64,000 bases of DNA, taken from an uncultured Spartobacteria bacterium (lineage in GTDB: Bacteria; Verrucomicrobiota; Verrucomicrobiia; Chthoniobacterales; Chthoniobacteraceae). The DNA lies in contig CAIURC010000005.1 in assembly GCA_903901425.1 (NCBI GenBank), forward strand, positions 62,001 through 126,000. The letters run 5' to 3'. Numbering within the stretch: the first letter of the stretch is position 1; the number at the start of each line of letters is the position of its first letter. The position numbers were made by a program, and so were the translations under genes. Under the pieces are notes generated by a model. That model did no database searches. It was not told where the DNA came from and saw only the letters and a program-made list of their open reading frames with translations. Of this stretch, positions 29,011 through 34,388 are shown in pieces.

Positions 29011-32000
29011 ATGAAACTGCGTCTCTCTTTTCTGGCTCTCCTCTGCGGCCTCCTGACCGGAGCGTTCTTCGCGTTAAAGGCTGAGGACAAGGCCTCGCCG
29101 CGGCTCACTCTGCCGGTTTTGACCCCGGACAAAGAAACGCCCGCGACCACCACCGCGCCGCCGCCCCTGCCGGAAACGCCTTCCCCGGCTCCGGAAACCA
29201 AACTGGAACTGATTCCGAACTCCACAGGTCAAGGTCCGGCCACCTCCCTTCCTCTCCCCCCGCCCCCGACCCGGTCGGGGGTCCAGCGCAACTGGATCGA
29301 CCAGACCCCGGAACAGGCCGCTTCCAAAAGCGTGGGCTGCATCGAGTGCCATAAGTCCACCGATGCCCACACCATGCACGCCTCGCCCAACGTCATCCTG
29401 GGCTGCGTGGATTGCCACGGCGGCAACCCAAAAAAAGGCCTGAAAATCCAGGAAGCCCACGTGGCTCCGCTCAACCCCGAGTTCTGGCGCAATTCCTCCA
29501 ATCCGGGCAATTCCACCGTCCTTCTCAACCACGAGTCCCCGGAATTCATCCGGTTCATCAACCCAGGTGATCTGCGGGCCGCTGAAAAAGCGTGTGGCCT
29601 CTGCCACGGCGACATCGTCAACCATGTCAACCACTCCATGATGAACCATGGCGGCATGCTGTGGAACGCCGCCGCCTACAACAACGGCAGCTTTGACCTC
29701 AAAAACCCAGTCGTTGGTCAGGCGTACGGCCCGGAAGGTCAGTCTCTCAAACTCGTGAACCCCTTTCCGCCCACCGCCGAACAAACCCGCACTCAGGGCA
29801 TCCTCCCCTACCTCATCCCGCTTCCCCGGTTCAACCGAACCATGCCCGGCAATGTGTTCCGGATCTTCGAAAAGGGCGGCTCACCCCAGCTTTCCCTCGG
29901 TTCGCCCACCGTGGATGAACCCCCGGGCAAACCCGAGCGCCGCCTCTCCGAACGTGGAATGGGCACCCTGAACCGCACCGACCCCATATTCCTCAGCGCT
30001 CACAAAACCCGGCTCCATGATCCGCTTCTGGGCTTCATGGGTTCCAATGACCGTGCCGGCGACTACCGGTCCAGCGGGTGTTCCGCCTGCCACGTGGTGT
30101 ACGCGAACGACCGCTCCCCGACCAACTCCGGGTGGTGGCACAAGTATGGCCATCAGGGGCTCAGCTTTTCCAAGGACCCCACCATCCCCAAAAACGAGCG
30201 GGGCCACCCAATCCTCCACCAGTTCACCCGGGCGATTCCCTCCTCCCAGTGCATGAACTGCCACATGCACCAAGGCAACCTCTTCGTGAACCCGTTCCTC
30301 GGCTACACTTGGTGGGATCAGGAGACCGATGCCGAGTTCATGTACCCCAAAGAGCAGCACGACCCCACCGACGACGAACTGGTCCGCTCCACCGTTTCCA
30401 ACCCCGAGGCTGCCGCCGCCCGCGGGCTCTGGGGCAAACTCGATTTCCTTGAAAAAGTTGCGGAACTCAACCCCAAGCTGAAGCACACCCAGTTTGCGGA
30501 TTACCACGGCCACGGCTGGGTCTTCCGCGCCATCTTCAAGCAGGACCGCAAAGGCAACCGGCTCGACCTAGACGACAACATCGTCCCGCACAACGATTTC
30601 AAAAAGACCGTCCACCTCAATGACATCCACATCGCCAAGGGGATGCAGTGCGTCGACTGCCATTTCGAGGTCGAGGTCCACGGCAACGGCCTGCTCTACG
30701 GCGAACCGCGCAATGCCACCACCATCATGTGCATCGACTGCCATGGCACTGTGAACAAGCGCCCCACCCTCGTCACCTCGGGCGCCAGCGGCCGCTGGGA
30801 TCCCAAGACCAACAAGATCTCCCCCATCGACCTCTCCCGGAGCGCCACCCCGTGGAAACCCCGCTTTGAATGGGAAGGCACCCGCCTTTTCCAGAACTCC
30901 ACGATGTCCCCGGACATCCGCTGGGAAGTGCCTCAGACCGTCGACATCGTCGATCCCAACTCCCACAACTACAACGCCAAGGCCCGGTACGCCAAAACCC
31001 TCCAGCGCGACGGCACCACCTGGGGCGCCGTTCCGGATTCCCCGGAAAAATGCAAATCCGACCTGGCCCACAGCAACGACTCGATGGACTGCCAGATCTG
31101 CCACACCTCCTGGGCCACCAGCTGTTTTGGCTGCCACATCCCGATGAAAGCCAACCAGCGCGTTGCCCAAAACAAGTTCGAAGGCGCTACCGAACGCAAC
31201 TTCTCCACTTATAACCCTCAGGTCGTCCGGGACGACGTCTTCATGCTCGGCATCGATGGCACCGTCAAAAAACACCGGATGGCCGTGCTCCGGTCCTCCA
31301 GCGCCATGGTTGTGAGCTCCCAGAGCTCGAACCGGGAATGGTTCTATTCCCAGGCCCAGACCGTCAGCGGCGACGGCTACAGCGGCCAGGCGTTCAACCC
31401 CCACTTCGCCCACACCACCAGCGGACGCGGCACCACCAAGAACTGCACCGACTGCCACCTGTCCAAGGCCGAGGACAACAACGCCTGGATCACCTCGCTG
31501 CTCGGGTTCGGAACCGGCACGGTCAATTTCTTTGGCCGGTACGCCTGGGTCGGTGGCGAACACGAACTCCACGGGGTGGTCTGGACCGAACCCGAGGAAC
31601 CCCAGTCGCCCATTGGCAGCTCTTTCCATAAGCACGCCTATCCCCGCCATTTCGCCCAGCACCTCGACAACAAGCGGGTGCTCAAGGAGGGCTACGATCA
31701 TCACGCCAGTTCCATCCACGACCTGACGCTCCACGGCGAGTACCTCTACACCGCCAACGGCAAAGCCGGGTTCGAGGTGTTCGATGTCGCCAACATCGAC
31801 CAGAAAGGCTTCTCCGAACGCTTCCTGACCGCGCCTGTCTCCCCGCTCGGCCAGCGCACCTACGTCCGGACCAAGTTCGCCACCTCGGCCGCCTTGGCGA
31901 GCACCCTGATCAATGATCCCACCCGGATCCAAAACCCGGCCAATGAGGAACAACCCATCCATCCCATCTACGGCCACGCCTTCATCACCGACCTGGAGGA

Positions 32001-33129
32001 AGGCCTCGTGATCGTCGACATCTCCCCGCTCTACGATGGCAACCCGGAAAACAACTTCCTGCGCCGGACCAAGTTCAAGGACGACAAAGGCGGCCCGACC
32101 ACCGACCACTTCAATCCCGATGGTAAACTCACTGGTGCAACCTACGGCGTCTGTGCAGGACACCGCGTTTACATCACCACCCCGCGCGGCCTTGCCGTCG
32201 TCGATGTCAACAATCCCGCCCAACCCCGGCTCGCCGGTGAACTCACCGGTGGGTTCCTGAAAAATCCGCGCGCCGTTGCCATCCAGTTCCGGTACGCGTT
32301 CGTCACGGACGAGGAAGGGCTCAAAGTCGTCGACATCTCTGATCCGGTCCACCCCAAGCCCGTGCCGGGCGCCGTGGTGAAACTGCGCAACGCCCAGAAA
32401 CTCTACGTGGCGCGCACCTACGCCTACGTGGCCAACGGCAGCGACGGCCTCGCCATTGTGGATGTCATCAACCCGGAACGTCCTGTTCTGGATCAGATGT
32501 TTAACGCAAATGGCCAACTCAACGACACCCGCGCCGTCCAGATCGGATCCGTGTCCGCCTCCATGTACGCCCTGGTCGCCGACGGCCATAACGGACTGCG
32601 CGTCGTCCAGATGATCTCGCCCGACACCGTCGAGGGTGCCTCCGGGTTCAGCCCGCGCCCCGCGCCGCGCCTGATCGCCTCATACCCCACCAAACACCCG
32701 ATGCTCGCTGTCTCCCGCGGCCTCGACCGGGACCGCGTCACGGACGAAACCGGGGGCCAGACCGTGGTGTTCGGCCGCCGCGGCGCCCGGCCCTTCCACT
32801 TGGACGAAATGCGCCCCTTCCTCCGCCACAAGGACGGCGCATACTACAAAGTCGAGGATGTCCTCCTTAAAACCGTCACCGAGGAACGCGAAGTCGAGCC
32901 CGGCAAAAAAGCGAAGGTCTCCCGGACCGCCCTCATGACCCGGGCTGGCCGCGAAATTCCGGCGCCCGAACCGCCTCCGGCCAAGATCGGGCCGGACGGC
33001 AAGCCGGTCGAACCCGCGCTTCCGCAGGGGAACCCCTCCAAGCTGGCACCGGACTTCGACCTTCTGCGCGTGGTTCCGCTCCAGCCCGCCATCCCCAAGG
33101 ATTCTAAGGAAGCGCCCAAGAAGCCTTAA
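29011..33129 (+). CDS. Ten-heme c-type cytochrome fused to an LVIVD beta-propeller
   Basis: 1372 residues with an N-terminal signal (about 1-24) and a Pro-rich linker. Ten CxxCH heme sites are seen, at about residues 110, 132, 195, 357, 414, 547, 574, 694, 705 and 812. The C-terminal third (about 905-1220) has at least five LVIVD-type blades (GLVIVDIS, GLAVVDVNNP, GLKVVDISDP, GLAIVDVINP, GLRVVQM). A charged Pro/Lys-rich tail ends the protein. It should sit in the periplasm or on the outer surface and carry electrons, with the propeller as a binding scaffold. No other cytochrome, porin or maturation gene is beside it. It is much larger than ordinary multiheme cytochromes. Confidence 0.92.
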   Translation: MKLRLSFLALLCGLLTGAFFALKAEDKASPRLTLPVLTPDKETPATTTAPPPLPETPSPAPETKLELIPNSTGQGPATSLPLPPPPTRSGVQRNWIDQTPEQAASKSVGCIECHKSTDAHTMHASPNVILGCVDCHGGNPKKGLKIQEAHVAPLNPEFWRNSSNPGNSTVLLNHESPEFIRFINPGDLRAAEKACGLCHGDIVNHVNHSMMNHGGMLWNAAAYNNGSFDLKNPVVGQAYGPEGQSLKLVNPFPPTAEQTRTQGILPYLIPLPRFNRTMPGNVFRIFEKGGSPQLSLGSPTVDEPPGKPERRLSERGMGTLNRTDPIFLSAHKTRLHDPLLGFMGSNDRAGDYRSSGCSACHVVYANDRSPTNSGWWHKYGHQGLSFSKDPTIPKNERGHPILHQFTRAIPSSQCMNCHMHQGNLFVNPFLGYTWWDQETDAEFMYPKEQHDPTDDELVRSTVSNPEAAAARGLWGKLDFLEKVAELNPKLKHTQFADYHGHGWVFRAIFKQDRKGNRLDLDDNIVPHNDFKKTVHLNDIHIAKGMQCVDCHFEVEVHGNGLLYGEPRNATTIMCIDCHGTVNKRPTLVTSGASGRWDPKTNKISPIDLSRSATPWKPRFEWEGTRLFQNSTMSPDIRWEVPQTVDIVDPNSHNYNAKARYAKTLQRDGTTWGAVPDSPEKCKSDLAHSNDSMDCQICHTSWATSCFGCHIPMKANQRVAQNKFEGATERNFSTYNPQVVRDDVFMLGIDGTVKKHRMAVLRSSSAMVVSSQSSNREWFYSQAQTVSGDGYSGQAFNPHFAHTTSGRGTTKNCTDCHLSKAEDNNAWITSLLGFGTGTVNFFGRYAWVGGEHELHGVVWTEPEEPQSPIGSSFHKHAYPRHFAQHLDNKRVLKEGYDHHASSIHDLTLHGEYLYTANGKAGFEVFDVANIDQKGFSERFLTAPVSPLGQRTYVRTKFATSAALASTLINDPTRIQNPANEEQPIHPIYGHAFITDLEEGLVIVDISPLYDGNPENNFLRRTKFKDDKGGPTTDHFNPDGKLTGATYGVCAGHRVYITTPRGLAVVDVNNPAQPRLAGELTGGFLKNPRAVAIQFRYAFVTDEEGLKVVDISDPVHPKPVPGAVVKLRNAQKLYVARTYAYVANGSDGLAIVDVINPERPVLDQMFNANGQLNDTRAVQIGSVSASMYALVADGHNGLRVVQMISPDTVEGASGFSPRPAPRLIASYPTKHPMLAVSRGLDRDRVTDETGGQTVVFGRRGARPFHLDEMRPFLRHKDGAYYKVEDVLLKTVTEEREVEPGKKAKVSRTALMTRAGREIPAPEPPPAKIGPDGKPVEPALPQGNPSKLAPDFDLLRVVPLQPAIPKDSKEAPKKP

Positions 33130-33323: not shown

Positions 33324-34388
33324 ATGCGAATGACTCGATTCGGCGCAAAAGCAGGGGCGAATGGCACATTTCATGTCACCTCGCGGGTCGTGGACAAGGA
33401 TTACAAGTTCGGCCCGGAGGACAAAGACAGCATTGTGGAGCGCCTTCGCCAATACGGGGAGTTCTGCGGGGTCGAGGTGCTCACCCACTCCATCATGTGC
33501 AACCATTTCCATCTCACCGTCCGTATCCCGGCGGCTCCAGGACCGGAGCTCGATGACGCCGAGATTGTTCGTCTGGCCGCCGTGGGGAAAATCTCGTACG
33601 GCGCCAAGCGGTTGGAACGCGAACTGGCCCAGGCACGCAAGGACGGAGACGAGGAAGCCATCAAGCGGCTCAGGAACAAGGTGCTTTCCCGAAGGCTGAA
33701 CTTGGCGAAGTTCATGCAGGCATTCAAACAGGCCATCACTCAGGATTACAATCGGCGCCATGGCCGGGAGGGTACGCTCTGGGAGGGGCGTTACCGGAGC
33801 GTGCAACTGGAGAACACCGAGCGGGTGGTCCCGTTGGTTTCCGCCTATGTGGACCTGAACCCGGTCCGTGCTGGGATGGTGGAGGATCCCGGGGACTATC
33901 AGTGGTCGGGGTACGGGGCGGCGATGCGCGGCGGTGTGCAGGCGTTGGAGGGAATCAGAAAGATCGTGATGGAGTGTCTGGATTCGCCCCGTTCTGGGGA
34001 AACGCCCGAACAGGAGATGCACCGGGCATTGGAGCGGTACCGGATGTATTTGTTCGAGAAGGGGGAGGCGAGGGAGGCGTCGGAGGATGGGACGGGCGGT
34101 CGTTTGGGGATTGATCCGGAACGGGTTGAGGAGGTGCTTCGCAAGGGAGGCAAGCTGAGTGCGTTTGAGGCGTCCCGGTGCCGGAACCTGTATTTTACGG
34201 AGGGCCTGGCAGTGGGGAGCGAGGATTTTGTGGAGGAAGTGTTTGAGAGGTACCGAGGGCAATTTGGAGCGCGCCGCAAGAAAGGGGCGCTGAAGCCTGT
34301 GGGTGTGGATCTGCCTGGCATTGCGGTGCTCGGGCCAGTGCGGAAACAGGCGATCACGGTTCCGGAACCGTTTTCCCGGAAGAAGTAA
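33324..34388 (+). CDS. REP-associated tyrosine transposase (Y1_Tnp family)
   Basis: 354 residues. The N-terminal HUH nuclease domain has GTFHVTSRVV, the metal-binding pair in MCNHFHLTV (His61, His63) and the nucleophile Tyr142 in AITQDYNRRHG, followed by GTLWEGRYRS and AYVDLNPVRAGMV. The C-terminal 170 residues are an extra helical region that is longer than in short RAYTs. The enzyme cuts single-stranded DNA at REP hairpins. All key residues are kept, so it may be active. A terminator follows at 34421. Confidence 0.93.
   Translation: MRMTRFGAKAGANGTFHVTSRVVDKDYKFGPEDKDSIVERLRQYGEFCGVEVLTHSIMCNHFHLTVRIPAAPGPELDDAEIVRLAAVGKISYGAKRLERELAQARKDGDEEAIKRLRNKVLSRRLNLAKFMQAFKQAITQDYNRRHGREGTLWEGRYRSVQLENTERVVPLVSAYVDLNPVRAGMVEDPGDYQWSGYGAAMRGGVQALEGIRKIVMECLDSPRSGETPEQEMHRALERYRMYLFEKGEAREASEDGTGGRLGIDPERVEEVLRKGGKLSAFEASRCRNLYFTEGLAVGSEDFVEEVFERYRGQFGARRKKGALKPVGVDLPGIAVLGPVRKQAITVPEPFSRKK

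Follow-up and report, generated by a model that had tools for sequence, protein, structure and literature searches.

The window analysed here is a stretch of 64,000 nucleotides from an uncultured Spartobacteria bacterium of the Verrucomicrobiota (contig CAIURC010000005.1, positions 62,001 to 126,000), and it encodes a protein of 1372 residues in which a ten-heme c-type cytochrome is fused to an LVIVD propeller. We consider it likely that this fusion protein forms the outermost part, facing the surface, of a trans-envelope electron conduit. The conduit is probably built from seven genes and would act as an electrical line across the cell envelope of bacteria from soil and lakes, with the fusion protein at its outer end. 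The seven families are the fusion cytochrome, an outer-membrane barrel, an inner-membrane decaheme cytochrome, a cytochrome b, a tri-heme c554-like protein, a double HbpS-like protein and a 4Fe-4S protein that binds cyclic nucleotide monophosphate (cNMP). In the genome of the window the corresponding genes are scattered over several contigs; in relatives they adjoin one another, as they do on plasmids from unrelated bacteria.

No single observation speaks more strongly for one system behind the scattered genes than the joint presence of the seven parts on plasmids of sphingomonads. Thirteen Sphingobium/Sphingopyxis plasmid records encode the fusion, with 41-45% identity to query residues 69-1268 across 98% of that length, and the set of plasmids carrying the cytochrome (at least 80% coverage) is identical to the set of 13 carrying the barrel; in four further plasmid records the propeller part alone was matched. 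On pMSHV of Sphingobium herbicidovorans the order is a tri-heme-like gene (four motifs), HbpS, barrel and cytochrome, followed slightly beyond, on the opposite strand, by the decaheme, the cytochrome b and a cNMP-binding 4Fe-4S protein that also contains a pyridine-nucleotide domain. The same seven parts form a single locus on pTomTYG74a, and pMC4 of Sphingopyxis indica has the tri-heme-like gene, HbpS, barrel and cytochrome, the other three being unannotated within 15 kb. Of the 17 plasmid records with any match, 3 are typed as conjugative, including pMSHV and pMC4. On two of the Sphingobium plasmids (L184:2458-10611 and L185:1005-8509), the conduit genes are immediately preceded by a two-partner-secretion-like gene (annotated as ShlB/FhaC/HecB on one plasmid and as heme:hemopexin-binding protein on the other) and by a gene for a hypothetical protein of very large size.

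In the genome of the window, the inner-membrane decaheme, the cytochrome b and the tri-heme protein are encoded together on contig C42, HbpS on C146, the cNMP-binding 4Fe-4S protein on C154 and the barrel on C51 (18970-21381), separate from the contig of the cytochrome. An initial annotation of the window had noted that no porin or quinol-oxidising gene lies near the cytochrome. This holds for the 64 kb themselves and fails for the genome, and what was inferred from the missing porin was wrong because the partner genes, the barrel gene on C51 among them, are on other contigs. If the conduit is real, it also shows that gene scattering can make such a system go unnoticed.

A scan of one genome per species (84,980 species) gave 497 stretches encoding the fusion cytochrome, and the locus counts below refer to the best 80 of these (L060-L139), whose titles are all Verrucomicrobiota except L094 (Proteobacteria) and L105 (bacterium). 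The barrel gene lies directly upstream of the cytochrome and on the same strand in 63 of the 80 loci, with a median gap of 3 bases and a maximum of 723. Two of the loci counted as lacking the barrel (L127, L129) have no cytochrome open reading frame (ORF) under the ORF choice used, and in 5 of the other 15 the cytochrome starts 820 bases or less from the end of the stretch. With a barrel encoded beside a multiheme c cytochrome in 63/80 loci and 13/13 plasmids, the system would belong to a kind already known, the porin-cytochrome conduits. In 24 of the 80 loci an NHL-repeat propeller gene (Pfam assignment of one member) follows the cytochrome, so that the system is associated with a second propeller.

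The barrel protein has approximately 800 residues and no Pfam family: two members (L036, L037) gave no match up to E 1 and a third (L029) gave two below the cut-off, and no solved structure was found by sequence at a level better than chance. Its AlphaFold model (43 sequences, mean predicted local distance difference test (pLDDT) 66.8, residues 1-186 mostly of low confidence) shows 18 strands, with every long loop on the same side. Among solved structures, its fold is closest to the alginate exporter AlgE (Z 29.7, root-mean-square deviation 2.8, 359 aligned residues), in agreement with Foldseek. The C-terminal residue is Y or F in 63/63 proteins, as is usual for outer-membrane barrels. A fragment 90% identical to barrel residues 2-140 was also seen on a second contig of the genome of the window (G000:C97:365-781), either a partial copy or an assembly effect.

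In IMCC26134 (L139), among others, the surroundings of barrel and cytochrome also encode a decaheme of approximately 570 residues, in which a membrane anchor was recognised by eye; further members are a small membrane protein, a c554-like protein with three hemes, an FAD/2Fe-2S protein and the cNMP-binding 4Fe-4S protein. The double HbpS-like protein stands beside the barrel in other loci, and near it in 38/80. The small membrane protein of pMSHV matches cytochrome b561 with E 1.4e-4, under the curated cut-off, and probably binds a b-type heme. The inner-membrane decaheme varies in its N-terminal head, which is FHA/YscD-like on pMSHV (L184:21811-23610) and cysteine-rich in IMCC26134 (L139:5905-7617).

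The joint presence of the seven families was followed in 57 near genomes, of which 20 have all seven, 33 have none and 4 are partial (G001, G029, G031 and G033, with completeness of 86%, 84%, 86% and 76%, respectively). Family by family, the cytochrome is found in 22 genomes, the barrel, HbpS, cytochrome b and cNMP/4Fe-4S proteins in 23 each, and the decaheme and tri-heme proteins in 24 each. The count of 22 includes G033, which has a fragment only, and leaves out G031, whose sole match (E 6.7e-4, residues 1058-1168) covers the propeller only and would have brought it to 23. Two genera are mixed: g4, with six genomes having seven families and three having none, and g9, with one having five and four having none. 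In a sample of 288 genomes spread evenly across the phylum, the cytochrome and the barrel occur in the identical 9 genomes, all within the 14 having a decaheme match; the five extra decaheme matches all cover query residues 12-257 only and may belong to another protein. The conservation of the fusion in near genomes and on plasmids indicates that it is not an assembly accident.

The features of the fusion gene and its product are as follows:
29011..33129, + strand: decaheme cytochrome-LVIVD propeller fusion, 1372 residues (ORF; Pfam LVIVD and Cytochrome_C7; full-length orthologs)
29011..29082, + strand: Sec-type signal peptide spanning residues 1-24, with the cleavage after LKA placed by eye (read from the sequence)
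29083..29325, + strand: proline-rich linker, residues 25-105, weakly conserved (ortholog alignment)
29338..31458, + strand: heme region with ten CxxCH, residues 110-816 (motif scan and 44-row alignment)
31720..32730, + strand: LVIVD beta-propeller, residues ~904-1240, with six clear blade motifs (Pfam PF08309, motif scan, modelled strands, Foldseek)
32878..33126, + strand: proline/lysine-rich C-terminal tail, unconserved (ortholog alignment)

As first described, ten CxxCH motifs are spread over approximately 700 residues of this single ORF (starting at residues 110, 132, 195, 357, 414, 547, 574, 694, 705 and 812), whereas 5000 shuffles of the residues of the protein averaged 0.012 such motifs and never gave more than 2. 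All ten are retained in 43 of 44 aligned orthologs, and the remaining row, cut by the contig start, has nine. A spacing unlike that of MtrC and OmcA had also been claimed, and this is not borne out, since these proteins carry ten hemes in roughly 670-740 residues, a near-equal density. The propeller, for which at least five blades had been announced, shows six blade motifs (residues 920, 998, 1060, 1103, 1146 and 1195), and PF08309 scores 87 bits over four stretches against a gathering cut-off of 20.2. An AlphaFold2 model of residues 69-1268 (44 sequences) has a mean pLDDT of 55.8, the propeller (~838-1238) alone being usable, and the best Foldseek match of this part is BtuG2 (8ptf). By sequence, apart from the short nitrite reductase and weak NrfB matches given below, the only solved structure matched by the fusion protein is a multiheme subunit of 226 residues (6lod, E 0.0016).

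Sixteen histidines outside the CxxCH motifs are conserved in at least 90% of the 44 rows, one of them (897) lying outside the heme region, and His 120 is conserved in the 20 rows having letters there. More than ten conserved spare histidines are enough for a second ligand, in bis-histidine coordination, to each of the ten hemes, and by its sequence the protein looks more like an electron carrier than a reductase with an open site.

We propose the following path. Electrons from NAD(P)H or another cytosolic donor, from quinol, or from both would enter through the cNMP-binding 4Fe-4S protein and the small b-type membrane cytochrome, pass to the inner-membrane-anchored decaheme and then to the periplasmic tri-heme c554-like protein, and would cross the outer membrane through or along the 18-stranded AlgE-like barrel to reach the fusion decaheme, whose propeller would bind the barrel or an external partner. 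Among the nearest solved propellers is BtuG, a surface protein whose structure was determined together with that of the BtuB barrel, and by analogy the propeller here may serve to dock the cytochrome onto its barrel. We infer in this scheme the surface location, the order of the carriers, the crossing at the barrel, the outward direction and the role of HbpS, and the outward direction is less sure than the conduit itself. Of the two guesses made initially, the link between respiration and a surface-bound partner is the better supported, as the gene travels with those of an outer-membrane barrel, a decaheme anchored in the inner membrane and a cytochrome of b type.

Several points weigh against this proposal. 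Judged by this one test, joint presence beyond kinship is real but modest: when presence was shuffled within genera, the cytochrome-barrel agreement was reached in 207 of 20,000 trials, a significance of only about 1 in 100 because few genera are mixed. The pLDDT of the heme region is below 50 over much of its length. Unlike in MtrC and OmcA, no lipobox was found at a plausible place, a lipobox-like string appearing in 6/78 orthologs and always within the hydrophobic stretch, so that anchoring and sidedness are putative. In the model, the 18-stranded barrel is narrower than MtrB, which has 26 strands, and may be too narrow for a heme chain. Finally, Sphingobium is aerobic, a poor fit with a purely anaerobic respiration.

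This last point bears on the foremost alternative, an inward conduit in which the surface decaheme takes electrons from Fe(II), reduced humics or another cell and delivers them to the respiratory chain and oxygen. The Sphingobium set does sit in aerobes, and in IMCC26134 the cytochrome gene is directly followed by genes for a fused COX1/FixO oxidase and a FixG-like protein (L139:14721-19240). Against this reading, the oxidase adjacency was observed in one locus, and both the pyridine-nucleotide domain of the pMSHV cNMP/4Fe-4S protein and an NQR-F-like gene adjoining the IMCC26134 locus point to an inner end linked to NAD(P)H. We regard inward flow as rather unlikely. Less probable again is a surface ferric or heme reductase serving iron acquisition, in which extracellular Fe(III) or heme would be reduced and the HbpS-like proteins would bind heme. 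The HbpS-like pair does follow the other families through the near genomes, in the same set apart from the partial ones, and recurs near the barrel; against this, no TonB receptor or siderophore gene was recognised among those families that could be identified of the 14 present in at least 6/80 loci, and seven redox proteins would exceed the usual need of assimilation.

A multiheme enzyme carried by the propeller, such as a reductase of nitrogen or sulfur oxyanions that would receive its substrate through the barrel, is the least probable reading: the AlgE and Occ barrels matched by the model do pass small molecules or polymers, and the family profile (1284 positions) touches the eight-heme nitrite reductase with E 7e-4 (NrfB is also weakly matched), but this match spans only approximately 50 positions, the conserved histidines are in surplus, and CxxCK, the motif of the lysine-ligated active heme in octaheme and pentaheme nitrite reductases, occurs in 0 of the 44 rows, so that the initial guess of an enzyme with the propeller as platform is unlikely. 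HAO-type hemes are CxxCH, and the absence of CxxCK says nothing against an HAO.

The proposed conduit can be set against known ones. He et al. (2017; PMC5615132) proposed a novel porin-multiheme system in freshwater Verrucomicrobia, naming IMCC26134 and Udaeobacter, and both IMCC26134 (L139) and a Udaeobacter (L078) are among the present loci, which likewise have a barrel gene beside multiheme cytochromes. As described in the main text of that paper, their system has eight-heme periplasmic cytochromes, and its barrels carry 20 or more transmembrane motifs, whereas here the cytochromes have 10, 10 and 3-4 hemes and the barrel 18 modelled strands; that main text makes no mention of a propeller, HbpS or a cNMP protein (PMC5615132). 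No eight-heme ORF was found in the 80 loci. Compared by description, the two systems differ in these features, but they may be the same, in which case the present finding refines theirs.

MtrCAB, PioAB and MtoAB share with the present system a barrel, a decaheme and, for MtrC, a similar heme density. The differences are the missing lipobox, the extra propeller, the absence of an MtrC/MtrF domain from the Pfam matches of the fusion protein up to E 1, and the absence of the MtrB/PioB porin PF11854 from 5 of 5 genomes at E <=0.001, that of the window included. MtrB is not among the 50 best structural matches of the barrel model listed by Foldseek and VIA-align, lists which exclude no fold. The OetABI, Omb-Oma-Omc and Ext systems follow the same gene-cluster logic, a barrel with outer and periplasmic multiheme cytochromes, and differ in that "propeller" and "LVIVD" are absent from the main text describing them (PMC10553843); the model of ExtM, the selenite/tellurite operon cytochrome (NF040943), gives the fusion protein only 70.1 bits, below its curated cut-off of 800. 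In the DFE_0448-0465 island of Desulfovibrio ferrophilus, multiheme cytochromes also stand beside 6-7-bladed propellers, which, according to the text of the papers describing it, are separate genes, two of them called NHL, with no apparent porin conduit, whereas the LVIVD propeller here is fused (PMC8322314, PMC9769857). AlgE shares the 18-stranded fold of the predicted barrel, at 14% identity over the aligned part; here the barrel is partnered by a cytochrome. In searches of the open-licence literature we recognised no description of a decaheme-LVIVD fusion, of the HbpS link or of the sphingomonad plasmid locus.

We suggest tentatively, as possible rather than probable, that this is a conduit class of its own, with a narrow AlgE-type instead of an MtrB-type barrel, a decaheme-propeller, an HbpS heme-binding pair and a cyclic-nucleotide-controlled inner end, which would act as one functional unit across Verrucomicrobiota even where its genes are scattered and would have moved as a cassette to plasmids of aerobic sphingomonads, some typed conjugative. 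If the proposed conduit is real, many freshwater and soil Verrucomicrobiota, as well as aerobic pesticide-degrading sphingomonads, would be able to trade electrons with minerals, humics or neighbouring cells, and an 18-stranded barrel would be able to serve such a conduit. Sphingobium herbicidovorans MH, with its barrel and decaheme genes B6S01_RS18420 and B6S01_RS18425, and IMCC26134 are culturable test cases in which all parts are known.

The neighbours of the cytochrome in the window (sulfatase, MFS, DUF1552, GntR/FCD, S15 peptidase and GH57) were considered as partners and set aside, as among the clustered ORFs the sulfatase alone turned up again, at a single further locus. Directly after the cytochrome, on the + strand, lies an IS200-type Y1 transposase-like gene (33324-34388; PF01797, 24.7 bits for a cut-off of 23), which may have some connection with the way the partner genes are scattered.

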